Shown here piece by piece: positions 3,802 to 23,945 of a stretch of 26,696 nucleotides of DNA. The DNA lies in IMG/VR virus record IMGVR_UViG_3300035698_030910, positions 1 to 26,696 of that record, one strand, 5' to 3'. Below the pieces are notes generated by a model, which was not told the origin of the DNA, ran no database searches, and saw only the letters and a program-made list of their open reading frames with translations. How positions within the stretch are numbered: the first letter of the stretch is position 1; every line of letters starts with the position of its first letter. This stretch comes from a virus. Made by a program: the position numbers and the translations under genes.

Positions 3802-5088
3802 ATGAGTTTCGACATTGTTAATTTCGCATTAGCGGCAAGTGTGGCTGATGCGGCTACTGTTACGGTGGGGTACCCTACTGGCCGTTCGAAGGGCAATTAC
3901 GCTCTCAACAGCGGTAAACATAAGCTACGCATCGGGAAGAATATTTATTCTTCTCCTGCTGACTTTACTATTGTGTTCAACGCAAACGCTTCGAGCATCA
4001 CAGTAACCAACGCCACAGGCGCAACCTGGCCTATTCAGTCAGATTGTGCGATCCAGCTTGAACAGGCCGGTGTGAATGCAGACAGTCCGTTTGCTGTGCT
4101 ATTGGCTTCTGTGAAGCGGGTGACTGCGCTGAGCCCTGTTATGATTGATCTGGGGTCGCCTAATGTGGCTGATGCTAACGGTTTTATCGTATCTCAGGAC
4201 CTAACGGCCTTGGGTGTGTTTTCGGTTAGTGCCACAGCAACGGCAGCTTTGGCTGCTGCAGCTTTGGCGGGCTCCGCGGATGTGCCACGTAATGTGGTAG
4301 CTGCGTGGACAGGGACTGCGGTTCTTACGGTTACAGGTACCGACGAATACGGTACTGTTATCGTGGAGTCTTCAGCTTCTGGTACGACACTAACTGGCGA
4401 TAAAGCGTTCAAGACCATCACCGACATTACCACTTCAGCGGATATTACTTCGTTGACTGTGGGTACCGGTGACGTTCTCGGGCTCCCAGTGGCTGTTAAT
4501 AACACTTCCGTCATTCTTGCGGAAATGAAAGATGGTGTGACGGTAGGCCGTGGGCCTAATGGCAAGATCCGCTTGTATTGGAATGCCGAACAGGTTTCTG
4601 TTCTCGCAGGCACAACGCATGCTATCGAGCTTATTTCGCCGGTAGTTGGTGCTATTAGCGGGTTAACTGTTGCAACCCGTGCCGCTGTTACGACAGGGGA
4701 TGCGGTTACGGTAGCGGTTGCCACTACGGCGGTTGACGGTTTGTCAGTCGCAGTCGCCGACTCTTCTACTAAAGGCACGACTACTTCGGACACTCCGACA
4801 GCAGGACACGCCACTACGGTAGTTGCGAAAGGCGATCGCCTTCAGATCATCTTTGGTAATTTATTTGCTACGGCAGGCGCTCTCGATGGTTACCTCGAGA
4901 TTACGCCTACTGATGGCGTATCTGACGGCGGTTTGGTATTAGCTGTCGGAACAGAAGCTACTGCACTAACAGGTGACGTGCGCGGGACTTATGACCCTGC
5001 CGACGCTTGCGATGGTGATGCTGGTTACAGACTTGCTGTATTACTGGCGGATCCTAATGATCTCGGTATTGCCCAATTTGGGGGTTAA
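3802..5088 (+). CDS. Probable head decoration/stabilisation protein
   Basis: A 428-residue protein starting after AAGGAG with 7-base spacing, directly behind the capsid gene. It is overwhelmingly Ala, Val, Thr, Gly and Ser with very few charged residues, as expected for beta-sandwich domains on a capsid surface. The N-terminus (TVGYPTGRSKGNYALNSGKH) and C-terminus (DVRGTYDPADACDGDAGYRL, then NDLGIAQFGG) resemble phage head decoration proteins. The middle (~130-340) looks like two or three inserted immunoglobulin-like or repeat domains. A long opposite-strand reading frame (4194-4814) exists only because of the Ala/Thr-rich codons and is not a gene. Its role would be to cement or ornament the shell. 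Capsid-adjacent position and composition support this; a direct homologue was not identified. Confidence 0.65.
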   Translation: MSFDIVNFALAASVADAATVTVGYPTGRSKGNYALNSGKHKLRIGKNIYSSPADFTIVFNANASSITVTNATGATWPIQSDCAIQLEQAGVNADSPFAVLLASVKRVTALSPVMIDLGSPNVADANGFIVSQDLTALGVFSVSATATAALAAAALAGSADVPRNVVAAWTGTAVLTVTGTDEYGTVIVESSASGTTLTGDKAFKTITDITTSADITSLTVGTGDVLGLPVAVNNTSVILAEMKDGVTVGRGPNGKIRLYWNAEQVSVLAGTTHAIELISPVVGAISGLTVATRAAVTTGDAVTVAVATTAVDGLSVAVADSSTKGTTTSDTPTAGHATTVVAKGDRLQIIFGNLFATAGALDGYLEITPTDGVSDGGLVLAVGTEATALTGDVRGTYDPADACDGDAGYRLAVLLADPNDLGIAQFGG

Positions 5089-14995: not shown

Positions 14996-15850
14996 ATGGA
15001 CCGGTCCCCTATAAGCGTCGTTCAGGCGCTCGACGATTATTACAAAGAACATATAGCCGTAAAAGCCGTCGCAAAACGCCGGGCCGAATACGCTATTGAG
15101 GCTTTAAAAAAGCATTTTCAGCAAGATCTGTTGCGCGATATCGAGATCCCGGCATGCCGCATCTATGCGTTGAGCCGGAAGGTGACAGACGCCACAATTC
15201 GCCGCGAATTAGGGGTGTTGCAAGCGGCGGCCAATCATGCGCTTCGGTGGCGGCGTATAGCACTGGATAAGATGCCGTCGATTGAGTTGCCCAAAGCTGA
15301 AGAAACTAAACCTGTATGGCTCTTTAAAGACGAACTCGAGCACCTTTTGGAAGTAGCCGAAAGCCAAAACGAACGTGTGTGGAGGTTTTGTCAGCTCGCC
15401 TACCATACTGGATCTCGGAGGGCTGCAATCGAAAATCTACCGTGGAGTAGGGTGTCTTTTGGGCCCAATCGCATAGATCTACAAGATCCTGATGCGCCCG
15501 TAACAAAGAAACGGCGTCCGATAGTGCCCGTCTCTGAAGCGATGGCTGATGAGTTAAGTTTGATGCAGTCGTCAGCGACGACAGATTGGGTCTTGGGTTC
15601 CAACACGTCGATAGCTCGCTGCTTTGAAACAGTAGCGGCGAAGGCGGGTCTTCTTGAATTACCGCGCTCTGGGTTACGCAGCGAAGGGCGATTAACGCCT
15701 CACGTTTTGAGGCACTCACGGGCCACCCATCTGTTGCAGGAAGGAAAGCCGCCATGGGCCGTGGCGAACCTATTGGGGGACAGTCTAACCACCGTAATGC
15801 GGGTCTACGGTCATGCTTGCCCGAATTATCTCGAGGATGTGCTGACATAA
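14996..15850 (+). CDS. int: Tyrosine-family integrase/recombinase
   Basis: A 284-residue site-specific recombinase with the full catalytic set: Arg141 in HTGSRRAAIENLPW, Lys171 or Lys172 in TKKRRP, His236 and Arg239 in HVLRHSRATHLLQ, His273 in VYGHACP and the nucleophile Tyr278 in NYLEDV. An N-terminal SAM-like core-binding helix bundle occupies residues ~5-90. There is no long arm-binding domain, so it is shorter than lambda integrase. It would recombine attP with a host attB, or resolve multimers. It lies behind a terminator and is convergent with the early operon, with 17 bases between stops. No excisionase gene was recognised nearby. The attP core could not be located. Confidence 0.92.
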   Translation: MDRSPISVVQALDDYYKEHIAVKAVAKRRAEYAIEALKKHFQQDLLRDIEIPACRIYALSRKVTDATIRRELGVLQAAANHALRWRRIALDKMPSIELPKAEETKPVWLFKDELEHLLEVAESQNERVWRFCQLAYHTGSRRAAIENLPWSRVSFGPNRIDLQDPDAPVTKKRRPIVPVSEAMADELSLMQSSATTDWVLGSNTSIARCFETVAAKAGLLELPRSGLRSEGRLTPHVLRHSRATHLLQEGKPPWAVANLLGDSLTTVMRVYGHACPNYLEDVLT

Positions 15851-16082: not shown

Positions 16083-18197
16083 TTAGCCCTTCCTGTAGCG
16101 TTTGCCCCGCCAGCCCGCCACACTAATAGGCAGACCCGGGCACCACTGCGGCTGTTCGGCCATTAATTCATTATACTCCTCCAGAGAGCCGAAATCTTCT
16201 GGTATTTCGCTAACGGCTTCATCGTGCACCGACAGGATCACGTCATAGCCGGCGTCGTCCACACGTTTCATCGCTTCGGCCATTATATCTCTAGCGGCCG
16301 CTTGCGTTATGTTCTCTACACCCAAACCCCCATAAAACGCCTTGTCGCCCCATTTGCGAGTATATTGGTCAATTGATTTATAGAACACCTGTTGGCGCGT
16401 GGCTCCCCATGGCGTTTTTACGTCACGCAAAGTAGGGTACGGGTACGATAGCGCTCTACCGGAGGGCAGCAAGCAGAACAGGAAACTACCTACTTTCTTA
16501 TAGATAACGTAGCCTGCGCGCGTCGCTTCGCCGGGGTTTCGTACCGCTTGAATGGCCGCCTCTTCTATTTCGCCCCAGAAAGCCTGTATGAAGTTGTTTT
16601 TATCACGCCAGGCGAGCTTGATCACTTCTGCAGCTAACCAAGCCTCCTGAGCCATTCCTGTGCGTTTACCGTGCTCTCCCCAGCCATCTTTGGCTTGATC
16701 TTTGAATTCACTGGCGGCCATCGCCCAAATAGGGCCGTATAGCTCGCCTATGCGCACGCCGTAGTTCTTGCTCATCTTGGCGAAAGCGCGGGGTCCGCCC
16801 TGGAAACCGAGGGATAGTTCGCCTACTTTGCCGATCTGGCGATGAGGGGCGGCTTCTTCTATACTGCAGCCGTAGATGGCGGCGGCCTGAATCAGATAGA
16901 TGTCAGGGCCGGTGCCTGCGTCGAATGCCCGGAAAGCGTCGAGTTTATCTCCCTGTCCAGCCAGCCACGCCACCATGCGGCCCTCGATGTTACTAAAATC
17001 GCTGGCCATTAGGATGTTGCCTTTTTCGGCGCAAATCATGCTGCGGACGCAATCTGAAACTAACGTTATGGGTGTGCCGTATATCAGCTCAATCCAGCTA
17101 GGGCTCTCTGATTCTACGGCTAATATGGCGTTTTCTATCTGCCGATCGATAGGGGTAGGCTCTGCCTTTTTGCATCCAATGATTTTAGGCCGCGTTAGGT
17201 TCTGTAGCTGTATGCCCCGCGCCGCCCATCTTCCTGTGGCAGAAGCGCCATAAAACTGCAGATTACCGCGGGCGCGCCCATCGCGTTGGCGTCGTAACAA
17301 CATAGCGTCTATTTTGGCTACGGACGATTTAGACCCCTCTTGGCGAATTTCAAGGGCTCGGCGGCATGGCCCGGATATGTCGTCTCGGGCTAGTAGGTCT
17401 TCTATGTGTTCACGGTCAACGCTTTTTGTCACGACACCGTTTTCGGCCAGCCATTTTATCAAGACGGCCACTTGTTTCACGCTGCCCACCGCACCGCTGG
17501 TGACGTATTTCAGCTCATCATTCAACCGTTTTTTTGTTAGGTCCACCACCACCTGCGCGCTTTCACACAGCGGTTTATCGATGTAAACGCCTTTATCATT
17601 GATTTTCATATCGAGCAGATACAGCTCTTGCTCCGAAGCTTTCAAACGCATGACGCGCCCGCCCAGAGCGACCTCTGTCCTCACATCTTGCAGGCAATAT
17701 TCGTCGAGGCGCGTTCGCTTTTCCTCTTCATCCCACCACACAGGCTTGCCGTCGTCATCAAACCGCCGCGGCCGACACATGCGCATCATTAAGCGGTGGC
17801 CTTCCTGATCTTTTACAATGTCAAGGCCAAAAGCAGGAGCGGCCGCCTCGAGTTTGCCGGGCATATTCATGGCCAGCGCTTCGGTCATTGTGCATTGGAA
17901 TTGGGCGTCGGCTGGCATTGGCCAACCGTAAACGAAGGATAGCAGGTAACGAAAAGCAAGCCGTTCGAACACAGCGTTCCATGCGGTGATAACACGTCCA
18001 GCCAGTATGTGGTCTCTGATCCTTTCGGGGCACGGCTGGCCAGGGCGCCATATAGCGGGTTCTTCTTGGTCAAAAGAGTAAGCAACGCACCACAGGGCGG
18101 TGCTTGTGTGCTCAAAATAAGCATGGGAGCCGGTCTTTCTGAGATCGACAATGCTGCGAGTTTCGACATCTATGTGCAGTTCTTTAGCATAAGACAT
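16083..18197 (-). CDS. Family-A DNA polymerase with 3'-5' exonuclease
   Basis: A 704-residue replicative polymerase. The N-terminal DnaQ-like exonuclease is intact: Exo I HIDVETRS (Asp10, Glu12), Exo II in ITAWNAVFERLAFRY, and Exo III in EYCLQDVRTE (about residue 170). The polymerase part has motif A (MASDFSNIEGRMVAWLAG, around residue 400), motif B in the phage form HRQIGKVGELSLGFQGG, and motif C (SVHDEAVSEI, around residue 656). There is no 5' nuclease domain. This is the PolA subtype that travels with DUF2815 and DUF2800 genes in phages. It would copy the phage genome with proofreading. The start ATG lies 14 bases inside the preceding small gene, so it is translationally coupled. Confidence 0.93.
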   Translation of the reverse strand: MSYAKELHIDVETRSIVDLRKTGSHAYFEHTSTALWCVAYSFDQEEPAIWRPGQPCPERIRDHILAGRVITAWNAVFERLAFRYLLSFVYGWPMPADAQFQCTMTEALAMNMPGKLEAAAPAFGLDIVKDQEGHRLMMRMCRPRRFDDDGKPVWWDEEEKRTRLDEYCLQDVRTEVALGGRVMRLKASEQELYLLDMKINDKGVYIDKPLCESAQVVVDLTKKRLNDELKYVTSGAVGSVKQVAVLIKWLAENGVVTKSVDREHIEDLLARDDISGPCRRALEIRQEGSKSSVAKIDAMLLRRQRDGRARGNLQFYGASATGRWAARGIQLQNLTRPKIIGCKKAEPTPIDRQIENAILAVESESPSWIELIYGTPITLVSDCVRSMICAEKGNILMASDFSNIEGRMVAWLAGQGDKLDAFRAFDAGTGPDIYLIQAAAIYGCSIEEAAPHRQIGKVGELSLGFQGGPRAFAKMSKNYGVRIGELYGPIWAMAASEFKDQAKDGWGEHGKRTGMAQEAWLAAEVIKLAWRDKNNFIQAFWGEIEEAAIQAVRNPGEATRAGYVIYKKVGSFLFCLLPSGRALSYPYPTLRDVKTPWGATRQQVFYKSIDQYTRKWGDKAFYGGLGVENITQAAARDIMAEAMKRVDDAGYDVILSVHDEAVSEIPEDFGSLEEYNELMAEQPQWCPGLPISVAGWRGKRYRKG

Positions 18198-18366
18198 TTA
18201 ACATCCACTTATCGTGCATTTCGTTCATTTGTTTCGCCACTAGCGGGTTGCGAACAACAGTTGGGCGGGGCTTGTATTTATTAGGGCGTGGGCCTACGCG
18301 CACGCGCTTTTTTCCGGCATGGGCTAAAGTTGCTAACAGGTCTGCAACGCTGATGTCATTGAACAT
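18184..18366 (-). CDS. Small basic protein upstream of the polymerase
   Basis: A 60-residue protein with a clear ribosome site (AGGAG, six bases before the ATG). It starts 11 bases inside the previous gene and runs 14 bases into the polymerase gene. After a short helix (MFNDISVADLLATLAHAGKK) it becomes strongly basic (KRVRVGPRPNKYKPRPTVVR), which suggests nucleic-acid binding. The end is a helix (QMNEMHDKWMLN). It is not recognised. Its place between small early genes and the polymerase suggests a DNA-binding accessory, but this is inference. Confidence 0.6.
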   Translation of the reverse strand: MFNDISVADLLATLAHAGKKRVRVGPRPNKYKPRPTVVRNPLVAKQMNEMHDKWMLNVLC

Positions 18367-18888: not shown

Positions 18889-19171
18889 TCAGACCTCTTT
18901 TGGGGAGTATTAGCCCCGACTCTTTTTTAGCGGGGTGCACGCGCACAATCACTTCTTTTATATGGGGTCCATCGGGCTCTACCTGCTCGAAATTGTATTT
19001 GGTTATAACGCCATCTTTTGTATCGAGCATCAGCTTAACCAGCGCCTGCCCCTTCGTAGGCATTACGAGCAAGATACCGTGCTGCAGCACCTGTTCATTA
19101 ACAGGCACTGCCGCACCGCATTCGACGATCTGGACCGGAGAATCGACCGAATTCTGTTTAGTATCACTCAT
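18872..19171 (-). CDS. Hypothetical early protein (99 residues)
   Basis: A 99-residue protein coupled to the previous gene by ATGA. The N-terminal ~25 residues are polar and probably flexible. Residues ~28-80 alternate hydrophobic and polar residues as in a small beta-barrel (HGILLVMPTKGQALVKLMLD, then GVITKYNFEQVEPDG and HIKEVIVRVHPAKKE). An OB- or SH3-like fold is possible but was not tested. The C-terminus is basic (LILPKRGLNGSIN). No family was recognised. It lies with five other small genes between the polymerase and GapR genes. Confidence 0.6.
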   Translation of the reverse strand: MSDTKQNSVDSPVQIVECGAAVPVNEQVLQHGILLVMPTKGQALVKLMLDTKDGVITKYNFEQVEPDGPHIKEVIVRVHPAKKESGLILPKRGLNGSIN

Positions 19172-19368
19172 TTGGCAGTGACATTGACGCTGCCTTTAGC
19201 GTCTTGAGTGTAAACATAGCCAGGTTTGATCTTAACCTTGCCATTTGTCAAAAAAGACACTTGCAGAGTACTACCTTTGCCCATGTCGAGTTTTAATTTT
19301 GTATTGCCGTCGGCGTCTTCATCGCCCACGGATAGAACTTTGGCTTTAAAGCCTTTACTTTTTGACAT
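19168..19368 (-). CDS. Small Lys-rich beta protein
   Basis: A 66-residue protein starting MSKSKGFKAKVLSVGDEDAD. I choose the ATG at 19368 rather than the upstream ATG at 19374, because AAGGA lies six bases before the former and abuts the latter. It appears to be all-beta (KLKLDMGKGSTLQVSFLTNG, then KVKIKPGYVYTQDAKGSVNV), like a small SH3- or OB-type domain. The high Lys content suggests nucleic-acid or ribosome contact. Its start lies inside the 3' end of the zinc-ribbon gene upstream, and its stop overlaps the next start, so it is tightly embedded in the operon. It is not assigned to a family. Confidence 0.65.
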   Translation of the reverse strand: MSKSKGFKAKVLSVGDEDADGNTKLKLDMGKGSTLQVSFLTNGKVKIKPGYVYTQDAKGSVNVTAK

Positions 19369-19531
19369 CTTCATTCCTTTCTAATAGTTCATCTTCATCG
19401 ATAATTTCGCAACATATATCACAGCGTATCGACCTTCTTCCCGTAATACATCCTTGTCTTACCGCATCGCGGTTAACGCCGGCATCGCAGTAGGGGCATA
19501 TGGCTTCCCCTAAATCGCTCCGGCGCCCCAC
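19355..19531 (-). CDS. Small zinc-ribbon protein
   Basis: A 58-residue frame in what otherwise looks like a gap between the GapR gene and the Lys-rich gene. It starts at a GTG one base after the GapR stop codon and ends 14 bases inside the next gene. It carries ICPYCDAG (Cys12, Cys15) and RCDICCEI (Cys37, Cys40, with Cys41), two CxxC pairs 22 residues apart with an extra Cys28 between. That is the pattern of a treble-clef or zinc-ribbon metal site. The C-terminus is acidic (IIDEDELLERNED). Such proteins often bind DNA, RNA polymerase or ribosome parts. The start has only a weak ribosome site, so coupling to GapR is likely. No database match was tested. Confidence 0.6.
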   Translation of the reverse strand: MGRRSDLGEAICPYCDAGVNRDAVRQGCITGRRSIRCDICCEIIDEDELLERNEDVKK

Positions 19532-19532
19532 C

Positions 19533-19820
19533 TTACTCTAATTCGGAGATCATTCCTAGTGCTGCCATATAGGTGCCCAGGACGGCCTCTTGTTCTTCAC
19601 GTTCAGAAGCGTCTATTTTACGAATCTTAATTATCTGTCTAATGGCCTTGGAGTTAAAGCCATTGCCCTTCGCCTCCGCATGAACTTCGCGTATATCGGC
19701 GGCGATGTTTGACTTCTCTTCCTCGAGGTTTTCAAGCCTCTGGACTACACTTTTAAGTTGATCGGCCGCTATTCCGCCTTGGCGGTTGTGGCCTTTTTTT
19801 GCTAATTCAGGTGACGCCAT
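19533..19820 (-). CDS. GapR-like DNA-binding protein (DUF2312)
   Basis: A 95-residue protein matching the GapR/DUF2312 family along nearly its full length. Conserved phrases include GGIAADQLKSVVQRLENLEE, then EKSNIAADIREVHAEAKGNG, then FNSKAIRQIIKIRKID and VLGTYMAALGM. Cellular GapR (about 89 residues, Caulobacter) forms a tetrameric ring around overtwisted AT-rich DNA ahead of forks and RNA polymerases and stimulates topoisomerases. A phage copy could aid its own replication, compete with host GapR or redirect it. It sits between the DUF2815 and polymerase genes of the replication operon, overlapping the previous gene by 14 bases. The basic residues of the central helix (KAIRQIIKIRK) are kept. 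Confidence 0.9.
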   Translation of the reverse strand: MASPELAKKGHNRQGGIAADQLKSVVQRLENLEEEKSNIAADIREVHAEAKGNGFNSKAIRQIIKIRKIDASEREEQEAVLGTYMAALGMISELE

Positions 19821-20399: not shown

Positions 20400-21029
20400 C
20401 TAGAATAGGGCGTCAATAGAACCTTCGGCGGCATCTCCACCAGTGTAATCGGCGACCGCTTCGAACTCGTCTTCGGCTTTCATTTTCCCGCCCAATGAAT
20501 CGTCATGGTTAAGCAGGAATACGTTGTTAAGGCCGAAAGAAACGCCTTTATTGCCTTTGGTATCGTAGGCAAAAGCGTTTAGCGTTGCGATGCACCAACG
20601 GCCTGGGTAAGCCTCGGATTCATCGTCGTCGGTTAGTTTGATAATATCGGCGCCTTTTTGGTGCACGACTGAAGGCTTGGTAAGCGCCGAGGCGCGAATA
20701 AGCGTCCAGCCTTCTTCGTAGCCTTCGTATTCAAACTCGCCAGCATCAAGGAATGGCGTTTTGAGCTTCATGCTGCCCGCTTTATCTCCCCACTTTGCTG
20801 CGGCTGTTTCACTGCATATTTGCTTCAACAAGGTTAGGTCACAAGATGGAGGGATCAGCATAGATAAGCTGAACTTCTTCTTACTATCAGCATCCTGCCC
20901 CATCGCTTTCGCATGGAACAAATGCGGGAAGCTCAATCGGCCGATAGGCGTAATAATGTTGCTGCCGCTTTTAGGTTCTCGGCACGCTAAAAGGTGCTTC
21001 GGTACTGTACTTAAATCAAGTTTGCTCAT
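20400..21029 (-). CDS. DUF2815 single-stranded-DNA-binding protein
   Basis: A 209-residue protein of the DUF2815 family, which has an OB fold related to T7 gp2.5. Supporting phrases are NIITPIGRLSFPHLFHAKAM, then SKKKFSLSMLIPPSCDLTLL, then GRWCIATLNAFAYDTKGNKG. The C-terminus is acidic and ends IDALF, the kind of acidic tip with a terminal aromatic residue that SSBs use to contact polymerase and helicase. AGGAG lies seven bases before its start, and it overlaps the end of the DUF2800 gene by 14 bases. It would coat single strands during replication and recombination. Confidence 0.85.
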   Translation of the reverse strand: MSKLDLSTVPKHLLACREPKSGSNIITPIGRLSFPHLFHAKAMGQDADSKKKFSLSMLIPPSCDLTLLKQICSETAAAKWGDKAGSMKLKTPFLDAGEFEYEGYEEGWTLIRASALTKPSVVHQKGADIIKLTDDDESEAYPGRWCIATLNAFAYDTKGNKGVSFGLNNVFLLNHDDSLGGKMKAEDEFEAVADYTGGDAAEGSIDALF

Positions 21030-22245
21030 GGTTGTTCTCCTCAGTTAAATAAGAAAACTCTTCTATTGCGTCGATCCGTGCAGGTTGCCGCGGATCATCC
21101 ATGGGAACGAGGGAGAGTTTTCCTAAGCCTTTTTCCCATAAGTCAGTGATAATTCCTTTGTGTTTTTTGCCGCATAACGCCTCTATTTGTGCCGGCGATT
21201 TCAGCACACTCTTCACGACGTCGCCCTTGAGCATACCCATATCAACCATTTCAGTGAGTTGCTCTTCAGCGGCTTCTTTATCTTTCCAGCGGCGGTTGGA
21301 CCTACCATTTACCAGCTTGGTTTCAGGCAGAAGTTTGCCCTCCAGAGCCTGGCTGTGCGCGTACGCTTGCACACTCGCCACCATGCCCTTAAGCAATCCG
21401 GCGTTTTCCCAGGCGAGTTTCAGTTCATCTATAGTCATGTCTTCGGGTTTAGGCATAACGGCTCTTCCTTCTGAGTCAAATTCGGCGCAGGCTATTTCGA
21501 ATGCGCGATTGTTGAGAGTTTGGCATATTGCTGCCGCTGGGCAAAACTTGCACCAATCGCCGGCCTCGAACGTAGGCTCTTCTACTTCAGTGAGTTTAGC
21601 GGCCGCTACCAGATCGTCGGTAAAATTCAGCAATTCTTCGACTGTGCACTCCCACGAGCGAATAGGGCCTTCGTGGTGCGGGCATCTGGGCTGGACAATT
21701 GCCAGTTCCACCAAATGGAGGCCCCTATTATGCTTCCCACTAACAGCCCCCAGGCCGTAATACATTAGTTGCGGGTTTTCCTTGACTTCTACGGCGATAC
21801 CCTGCCCGTATTTGAAATCGCACACCAGCAGTTTCATCCATTTTGGAAAGTATATGACACAATCGGCCGTTCCGAACATATCGTGAAATATGTGTGTCAA
21901 GTCGAATCTTTGCTCATACACCACTTCGCAATCATCTAAGCCGGTTTCGGCCTTATAAACCGCCATAGCTGAATATATGAAATCCATATATTCGCGCACA
22001 GCATCGGCCATTTCCTGCGTTACTTCTATGTCTTCATAATGCTTTACGTCTTCACCAATCCAGTCGTCCGGATCGCCATTGTTCTGTAGGCAATGCGCCG
22101 CCACTTCATGGGCGCAGGAACCCTCCCTCGCATACACGCTGGACTCATTGGGCATGCCTTCCGAAAGCTGGATGCTGCCAGGGCATTTCATCCAACGTTC
22201 AGACGACGATGCGCCTAGTTTTGCGTGTTGCGAGGGAGCAGCCAT
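21016..22245 (-). CDS. DUF2800 Cas4-like PD-(D/E)XK nuclease
   Basis: A 409-residue protein of the DUF2800 family, related to Cas4/RecB nucleases. The active-site set is visible: Asp128 in FGTADCVIYF, Asp143-x-Lys145 in VCDFKYGQG, and the Q-motif Gln159 in ENPQLMYYGLG. Four cysteines are placed as in Cas4-type iron-sulphur clusters: Cys21 (WMKCPGS) and Cys232, Cys235, Cys241 (WCKFCPAAAICQ). It would be an exonuclease that makes single strands for recombination, next to its DUF2815 SSB partner. Its ATG shares a base with the previous stop (TAATG). Rightward frames at 21101-21760 are shadows. The cluster has not been shown experimentally. Confidence 0.88.
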   Translation of the reverse strand: MAAPSQHAKLGASSSERWMKCPGSIQLSEGMPNESSVYAREGSCAHEVAAHCLQNNGDPDDWIGEDVKHYEDIEVTQEMADAVREYMDFIYSAMAVYKAETGLDDCEVVYEQRFDLTHIFHDMFGTADCVIYFPKWMKLLVCDFKYGQGIAVEVKENPQLMYYGLGAVSGKHNRGLHLVELAIVQPRCPHHEGPIRSWECTVEELLNFTDDLVAAAKLTEVEEPTFEAGDWCKFCPAAAICQTLNNRAFEIACAEFDSEGRAVMPKPEDMTIDELKLAWENAGLLKGMVASVQAYAHSQALEGKLLPETKLVNGRSNRRWKDKEAAEEQLTEMVDMGMLKGDVVKSVLKSPAQIEALCGKKHKGIITDLWEKGLGKLSLVPMDDPRQPARIDAIEEFSYLTEENNHEQT

Positions 22246-22667: not shown

Positions 22668-23945
22668 TTATCCAAATAATGCGATCTGCTCTTTTGTACG
22701 CCGCTGCACAACTTCCATAATGGCGTCATCCAGCGACCCTGCCAGTCCTACAAATCGCGCTAGGACTGGGTTTTCTTGCCCGATACGATCGAGCCTTGCA
22801 ATGACCTGGGCGTTGTCATCGGGCACCCAAGAATATTCAACGAGCAGCATATCTCCCGTAGCATGCTGTAAGCCATCAAGGCCGGTTCCGCCAGCGTTGA
22901 TCTGTAGCAGCAGAACCGCAAGGCCCGCTGCGGCCACAAAACCTCGCTTTGCAGCGTCTTTTTCCTTATCAGTGCTGCCCCAGTATATAAAGCTCTTTAT
23001 CTTGTGCTTGGCGAGCTCCTTTGCGAAGTTACTGATTACATCCCGATGAACGCATACCAGCACAATTTTCTCGAGGCCACAATCAAATTGGTCAAGTAGC
23101 CATTTAATCACAGGGCCAACTTTTATCAAGCCAATTGCGCGGCGCATCGTTGAAGTTTCTAACCATATTTCTTGCAAACCTTCCAGGCCCGCGTTCTTAA
23201 AAGCGTCCATAGCGAGTTGGCCGATCTCGTCAGTCTCTACCTGCGCCAGCTCGCTACGTGTTTTTTCCGGATCAAGATGTAAGTCAGCCACTAGCGGCTC
23301 TTTCCAATCTTTGAGCACTTGTCTTTTAGTACGGCGCAGCATATATGGGGCGAGCCTTTCTTTAAGCTCTTCCAGGTTCTTCCCGCGCTTTACCACCATA
23401 CCCCGGCCGCCATCAAACATAACGCAGTACCGGTTTTTGAAGGACCAATAATCCATGGTCTTTCTCGATATTGGTGTTTGCAGCGCTCCGGGGATGACAG
23501 CAAGCATGACCGAGTATAACCCAGATGGGTCTTTGGGGGATGGGGTTCCCGACAAACACCACACTCGCTCCGCTTTTGCTATTTCACCGTCCACGCCGTA
23601 CATTTGCTTGCCCAGAATGTTCTGGGTTCTGCCGGCGCGGTGGTTCTTCAACATTTGGAATTCGTCAGGTATCAGCACTTCCATGTTATAGGGCAGGCCT
23701 TTATCTCGAGCGTATTCGTAGCTGTAGGATTGCTGGTGCGCTTGATGGCCTAATTGCTTCATATTCGCACGCCACTGGGTTCGCACACTGGCCGGGGCTA
23801 TCACGTCGAGAGCTTCAGCGCCAATCATATTAGCTGCCGTGATTCCCTGCACCGTCTTTCCTAAGCCTGGCGCATCACAAAGTAAGCCTCTGTGCCGCTC
23901 GGCGAGGAATTTAGCGCCTTCTTCTTGATAGGGAAAAAGCTTCAC
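22668..23945 (-). CDS. SNF2-type DNA helicase/ATPase
   Basis: A 425-residue helicase of superfamily 2. Its motifs are in order: the Q-like region FPYQEEGAKFLAERHRG, Walker A DAPGLGKT (residues 24-31), Walker B-type LIPDEFQ (DEFQ, 94-97), LSGTPSP (131-137), and C-lobe INAGGTGLDG (~350) and IARLDRIGQ (~385). The last phrase is the hallmark arginine-finger region of SNF2/SMARCAL1-like remodellers. It would translocate on or reanneal DNA at forks. The start is a GTG that overlaps the DUF1508 stop (GTGA). DEFQ replaces the common DEAH. Rightward frames inside it are shadows. Confidence 0.9.
   Translation of the reverse strand: MKLFPYQEEGAKFLAERHRGLLCDAPGLGKTVQGITAANMIGAEALDVIAPASVRTQWRANMKQLGHQAHQQSYSYEYARDKGLPYNMEVLIPDEFQMLKNHRAGRTQNILGKQMYGVDGEIAKAERVWCLSGTPSPKDPSGLYSVMLAVIPGALQTPISRKTMDYWSFKNRYCVMFDGGRGMVVKRGKNLEELKERLAPYMLRRTKRQVLKDWKEPLVADLHLDPEKTRSELAQVETDEIGQLAMDAFKNAGLEGLQEIWLETSTMRRAIGLIKVGPVIKWLLDQFDCGLEKIVLVCVHRDVISNFAKELAKHKIKSFIYWGSTDKEKDAAKRGFVAAAGLAVLLLQINAGGTGLDGLQHATGDMLLVEYSWVPDDNAQVIARLDRIGQENPVLARFVGLAGSLDDAIMEVVQRRTKEQIALFG

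Follow-up and report, generated by a model that had tools for sequence, protein, structure and literature searches.

A probable small gene with two CxxC pairs next to GapR in a phage replication operon

Introduction

The viral contig analysed here (IMG/VR record IMGVR_UViG_3300035698_030910; 26,696 nt in full, hereafter the window) encodes a homologue of GapR, and the short stretch behind the GapR gene raises two questions: whether it contains a small gene for a zinc-ribbon-like protein and, if so, whether this protein works together with GapR. GapR binds overtwisted DNA and stimulates type II topoisomerases, and phage-encoded GapR has already been described (PMC7349988, PMC12185513); a first phage GapR is claimed in PMC12185513 (2025), and the earlier PMC7349988 cites the GapR of phage PhiCr30. 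A link between ribbon and GapR, if true, would give the phage a handle of its own making on a bacterial supercoiling sensor; however, the comparative evidence points against it. The ribbon gene matters little except for annotation: in compact phage operons, frames that fill a gap, lack an ATG start, and carry cysteine pairs escape notice. Moreover, the analysis separates an accidental ribbon neighbour from GapR itself, which recurs with a module of PolA, exonuclease, and single-stranded DNA (ssDNA)-binding protein in several phages.

The replication operon and its GapR

The GapR gene belongs to a minus-strand operon that encodes, in order, an SNF2-type helicase (22668..23945), a DUF2800/PD-(D/E)XK exonuclease (21016..22245), an Enc34-type ssDNA-binding protein (20400..21029; PF10991, E=2.4e-32), GapR (19533..19820), small genes and, at the operon end, a family A DNA polymerase (PolA; 16083..18197). 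A phage integrase is located at 14996-15850. The nearest cultured phages, Rhizobium phage RHph_N65 and Microcystis phage Mae-Yong1326-1, were identified by the capsid protein, the polymerase, and a structural-region protein of 691 residues; near relatives were also sought in IMG/VR via the ssDNA-binding protein, the exonuclease, and the capsid protein, and none were found there.

By its sequence, the 95-residue product of 19820..19533 is a genuine GapR homologue. It scores 104.9 bits against PF10073 (E=1.6e-30; cut-off 22.6 bits) and is a true member of this family (UPF0335), which comprises GapR of Alphaproteobacteria and their phages; it also matches the PDB entries 6cfx (E=3.5e-24) and 6jyk (Caulobacter crescentus, E=2.9e-20). 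The alignment with C. crescentus GapR is ungapped. In particular, among the basic DNA-contacting positions of the C. crescentus protein (K34, K42, K49, K56, K59, K60, R63, and K66; PMC7498317), 7 of 8 carry K or R in the phage protein as read from the alignment, the exception being K60. The phage GapR would most likely keep its known function and bind overtwisted DNA in front of the replication fork of the phage's own PolA.

The 58-codon frame

Directly behind GapR, the minus strand carries an open frame of 58 codons (19355..19531) that starts with GTG and translates as VGRRSDLGEAICPYCDAGVNRDAVRQGCITGRRSIRCDICCEIIDEDELLERNEDVKK. Cysteines occupy positions 12, 15, 28, 37, 40, and 41 and include the pairs Cys12-x2-Cys15 and Cys37-x2-Cys40, which the first-pass annotation had pointed out without naming a strand; the two CxxC pairs make a four-cysteine site possible and agree with the general cysteine pattern of zinc ribbons. 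The placement described in that annotation was also borne out: in the window, the GapR stop codon (TAA) is followed by a single G and then by the GTG, and the stop codon of the frame lies within the next gene. The frame, its cysteines, and its position in the operon are established. The protein has a computed pI of 4.8 (acidic), and its AlphaFold2 model, a low-confidence one built from the single sequence without relatives (pLDDT 65), is helical instead of ribbon-like and has no fold match. The next small gene (19168..19374, minus strand) encodes 68 amino acids when read from its first ATG (19374) and has no known relatives; its Shine-Dalgarno sequence favours the second ATG, at 19368, over the first.

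A gene or a chance open frame

Is the frame a gene, or did it arise by chance in a stretch that has another purpose, for example as leader sequence for the gene that follows? Its length by itself is unremarkable and would suit a chance origin: when the stretch was shuffled 20,000 times with dinucleotides preserved, a same-strand frame with at least 52 open codons appeared in 7.9% of cases. What is remarkable is that the cysteine pairs lie exactly in the hole between co-directional operon genes. Two CxxC pairs within one open run were seen in 0.015% of the 20,000 shuffles, which argues against chance, and a long open run together with two pairs was seen in none of them (0/20,000); likewise, among 3,998 frames of 50-80 codons, counted from stop to stop in the window and the loci collected at that stage, only 11 (0.28%) contain two such pairs. 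The hole occupied by the frame is 158 nt, and 13 of the 14 other minus-strand operon junctions that were measured fall within -46 to +33 nt. If the frame were not a gene, the operon would contain no other hole as long, save one in which a gene probably lies too. The stop codon of the frame overlaps the start of the next gene, as is seen at neighbouring operon junctions.

The chance reading also draws on the failure to find a homologue in any collection searched, on the weak start signal at the GTG, and on codon usage, which is undecided: the score of the frame lies above 94% of spurious frames, yet only about 6% of real genes score lower, on a measure that separates the two poorly. We regard a chance frame as unlikely, though it is the most serious of the alternatives. 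Given the tight packing of the operon, the filling of the hole, and the rarity of two CxxC pairs in shuffles, the frame 19531..19355 is probably a gene, as the first-pass annotation had proposed for an easily missed non-ATG start, with a predicted CxxC/CxxC metal site.

The sole exception among the 14 junctions is a second 158-nt hole, directly before PolA. It contains a 60-codon ATG frame (18184-18366, minus strand) with a strong Shine-Dalgarno sequence (-7.4), which is probably a second small gene without known relatives.

Start codon and translation

The start of the 58-residue protein is uncertain. At the GTG, the anti-Shine-Dalgarno energy is -2.4 kcal/mol, near the random-site median of -1.9; thus, of the translation signal sought at this codon, the Shine-Dalgarno part is weak and the stop-start coupling remains. 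Because the GTG has almost no Shine-Dalgarno sequence of its own, initiation would depend on coupling to the GapR stop: ribosomes finishing GapR would restart one base later at the GTG, and this would be the main route by which the ribbon gene is translated.

A possible alternative start lies just before the CPYC motif (19494..19515, minus strand), where a Shine-Dalgarno-like AGGGGA is followed by an in-frame ATA (19501) and an out-of-frame ATG (19499). The anti-Shine-Dalgarno energy of this site is -6.4 kcal/mol, compared with -2.4 for the GTG, and it is stronger than about 95% of random sites. Initiation at the ATA would yield a protein of 48 residues with the CPYC knuckle at its N-terminus, and residues 1-10 of the GTG frame would not be protein. 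This energy speaks for such a start; however, ATA is very rare as a start codon, and the ATG two bases further, which opens only 8 codons before a stop, could use the AGGGGA site instead, so that we consider initiation at the ATA very improbable.

In our judgement, the likely explanation is an orphan yet genuine small gene within the replication operon, translated by coupling and encoding a zinc-binding adaptor with no fixed GapR partnership. We infer that the gene is translated into a protein of approx. 6.5 kDa whose two CxxC pairs would together bind a single zinc ion as a ribbon or knuckle. Most likely, the product would serve as a small adaptor, with nucleic acid or a host protein as its binding partner, in replication or in host take-over, and it may be a fast-evolving accessory specific to its lineage.

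Homologues and known families

The 58-residue protein had no homologue among IMG/VR viral contigs and GTDB genome contigs, in scans that rely on exact back-translated peptide words and may miss distant relatives. The same was true of tblastn searches of phages and plasmids (sole phage matches at E about 9), of 50 whole records including RHph_N65 and Mae-Yong1326-1, in which three weak matches were read in other long frames and lack the cysteine pattern, and of phmmer against 31,683 frames from the collected loci. In the PDB, no homologue was found; the best matches (E=0.044) are C2H2 finger proteins, which share with the protein only CxxC and the stretch TG-R-S-x-x-C-D-I-C. Pfam, PHROGs, and NCBIfam gave no accepted match and PADLOC gave nothing. 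Profile searches, a check proposed in the first-pass annotation, named no family for the ribbon. That annotation had also taken missing conservation of the four cysteines or the reading frame in related phages as refuting its idea, and since no relative turned up in any collection searched, this check speaks against the link with GapR. A fast-evolving protein of 58 residues can escape detection. The missing homologues hence weigh less against the gene than against its pairing with GapR, for which the loci examined had been retrieved by way of GapR and PolA.

The best Pfam score was obtained with Zn_ribbon_PaaD (PF23451; residues 8-43), but its 14.2 bits (E=0.035) fall below the cut-off of 27 bits. 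Cys_rich_CPXG (PF14255) resembles the protein in its CPxC...CxxCC pattern, as CPYC is followed 21 residues on by C-x2-CC; in contrast to that family, the protein has no E/D before the second pair and no P after CC. PF14255 found no match in the window at E<=10 (curated cut-off 25.2 bits), and with a six-member Cys_rich_CPXG profile, cysteine-preserving shuffles scored as high in 181 of 1000 cases (18%); thus, the likeness is one of cysteine pattern only. The family came to notice through a spacing scan (CPYC-x21-CDxC), which matched once in IMG/VR and seven times in genomes; one of these matches, a Campylobacteraceae protein at locus L183, is a true Cys_rich_CPXG member and served as the positive control (PF14255, 47.1 bits).

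The closest likeness in kind is to small orphan zinc-ribbon proteins of tailed phages, which are also short, carry two CxxC pairs about 20 residues apart, and are encoded in early or replication gene clusters, although they have no sequence similarity to the protein except for the cysteines. Unrelated small phage genes with two CxxC pairs were met at loci L181 (63 aa), L174 (adjoining PolA), and L080 (adjoining GapR). Small two-CxxC phage genes are a common kind, and the ribbon gene is an ordinary one.

Does the ribbon travel with GapR?

The first-pass annotation had further suggested that GapR and the ribbon could belong together as a phage unit that targets DNA topology or host RNA polymerase. 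The two genes do adjoin, one base apart, and the GapR is genuine, with its DNA-contact residues kept. However, the ribbon is not a part of GapR (PF10073), and in a survey of GapR loci (95 loci, 81 non-redundant, 80 usable) the same pair occurred at no other locus. Frames with two CxxC pairs adjoin GapR at 3 of the 80 usable non-redundant loci (L009, L055, and L080), compared with 13 of 867 gene ends in the background (Fisher p=0.15), and all three are unrelated to the window protein. From the side of the polymerase, PolA alignment led to 80 loci, of which 5 have GapR in the module and none the ribbon; in the five PolA modules with GapR from IMG/VR, the neighbours are other genes.

The cultured relatives give the same picture. 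In RHph_N65, a GapR gene (PF10073, 53.8 bits) likewise stands between the genes for the ssDNA-binding protein and PolA, at the equivalent site of the module; the gene directly after it is annotated as an endodeoxyribonuclease and looks by its sequence like a DnaQ-type exonuclease, and the ribbon frame is absent from this phage. In Mae-Yong1326-1, which also lacks the frame, one gene of 76 residues, with no such cysteine pattern, separates the ssDNA-binding protein from PolA. In general, the GapR neighbour varies between phages, being an exonuclease, a methyltransferase, GcrA, or HNH. With no relative of the ribbon found and an exonuclease gene in its place in RHph_N65, the proposed functional unit is not supported, and we judge it highly improbable. 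Least probable of all is a reading in which the protein founds a new phage zinc-ribbon family as its first known member, is translated by stop-start coupling to GapR, and serves in phage replication by tuning GapR, a host topoisomerase, or RNA polymerase.

The orphan replication-operon gene thus remains the preferred explanation for the ribbon, and it is GapR that recurs. GapR lies several kilobases or less upstream of a family A polymerase at loci L084, L101, L104, L105, L106, and L138, and its presence near this polymerase in several phage loci suggests a standing role in phage replication.

Two further observations concern the genes next to GapR. At L080, the two-CxxC frame (4232-4432, plus strand; 67 residues) begins 3 bases past GapR and is unrelated to the window frame. 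Its product is weakly similar to the Lar restriction alleviation protein, scoring 13.4 bits where PF14354 requires 28.6; the window protein does not match this family at E<=1 or at E<=10. A GcrA-like gene lies a few bases downstream of GapR at L013, L021, L022, L025, L027, L030, L040, L044, and L063, and one also occurs with GapR at L093 (Agrobacterium phage Atu_ph08); in the one case of L022, Pfam confirms the assignment (PF07750, E=1.4e-11). GapR-GcrA is a repeated pairing, in phages, of two alphaproteobacterial cell-cycle and chromosome proteins.
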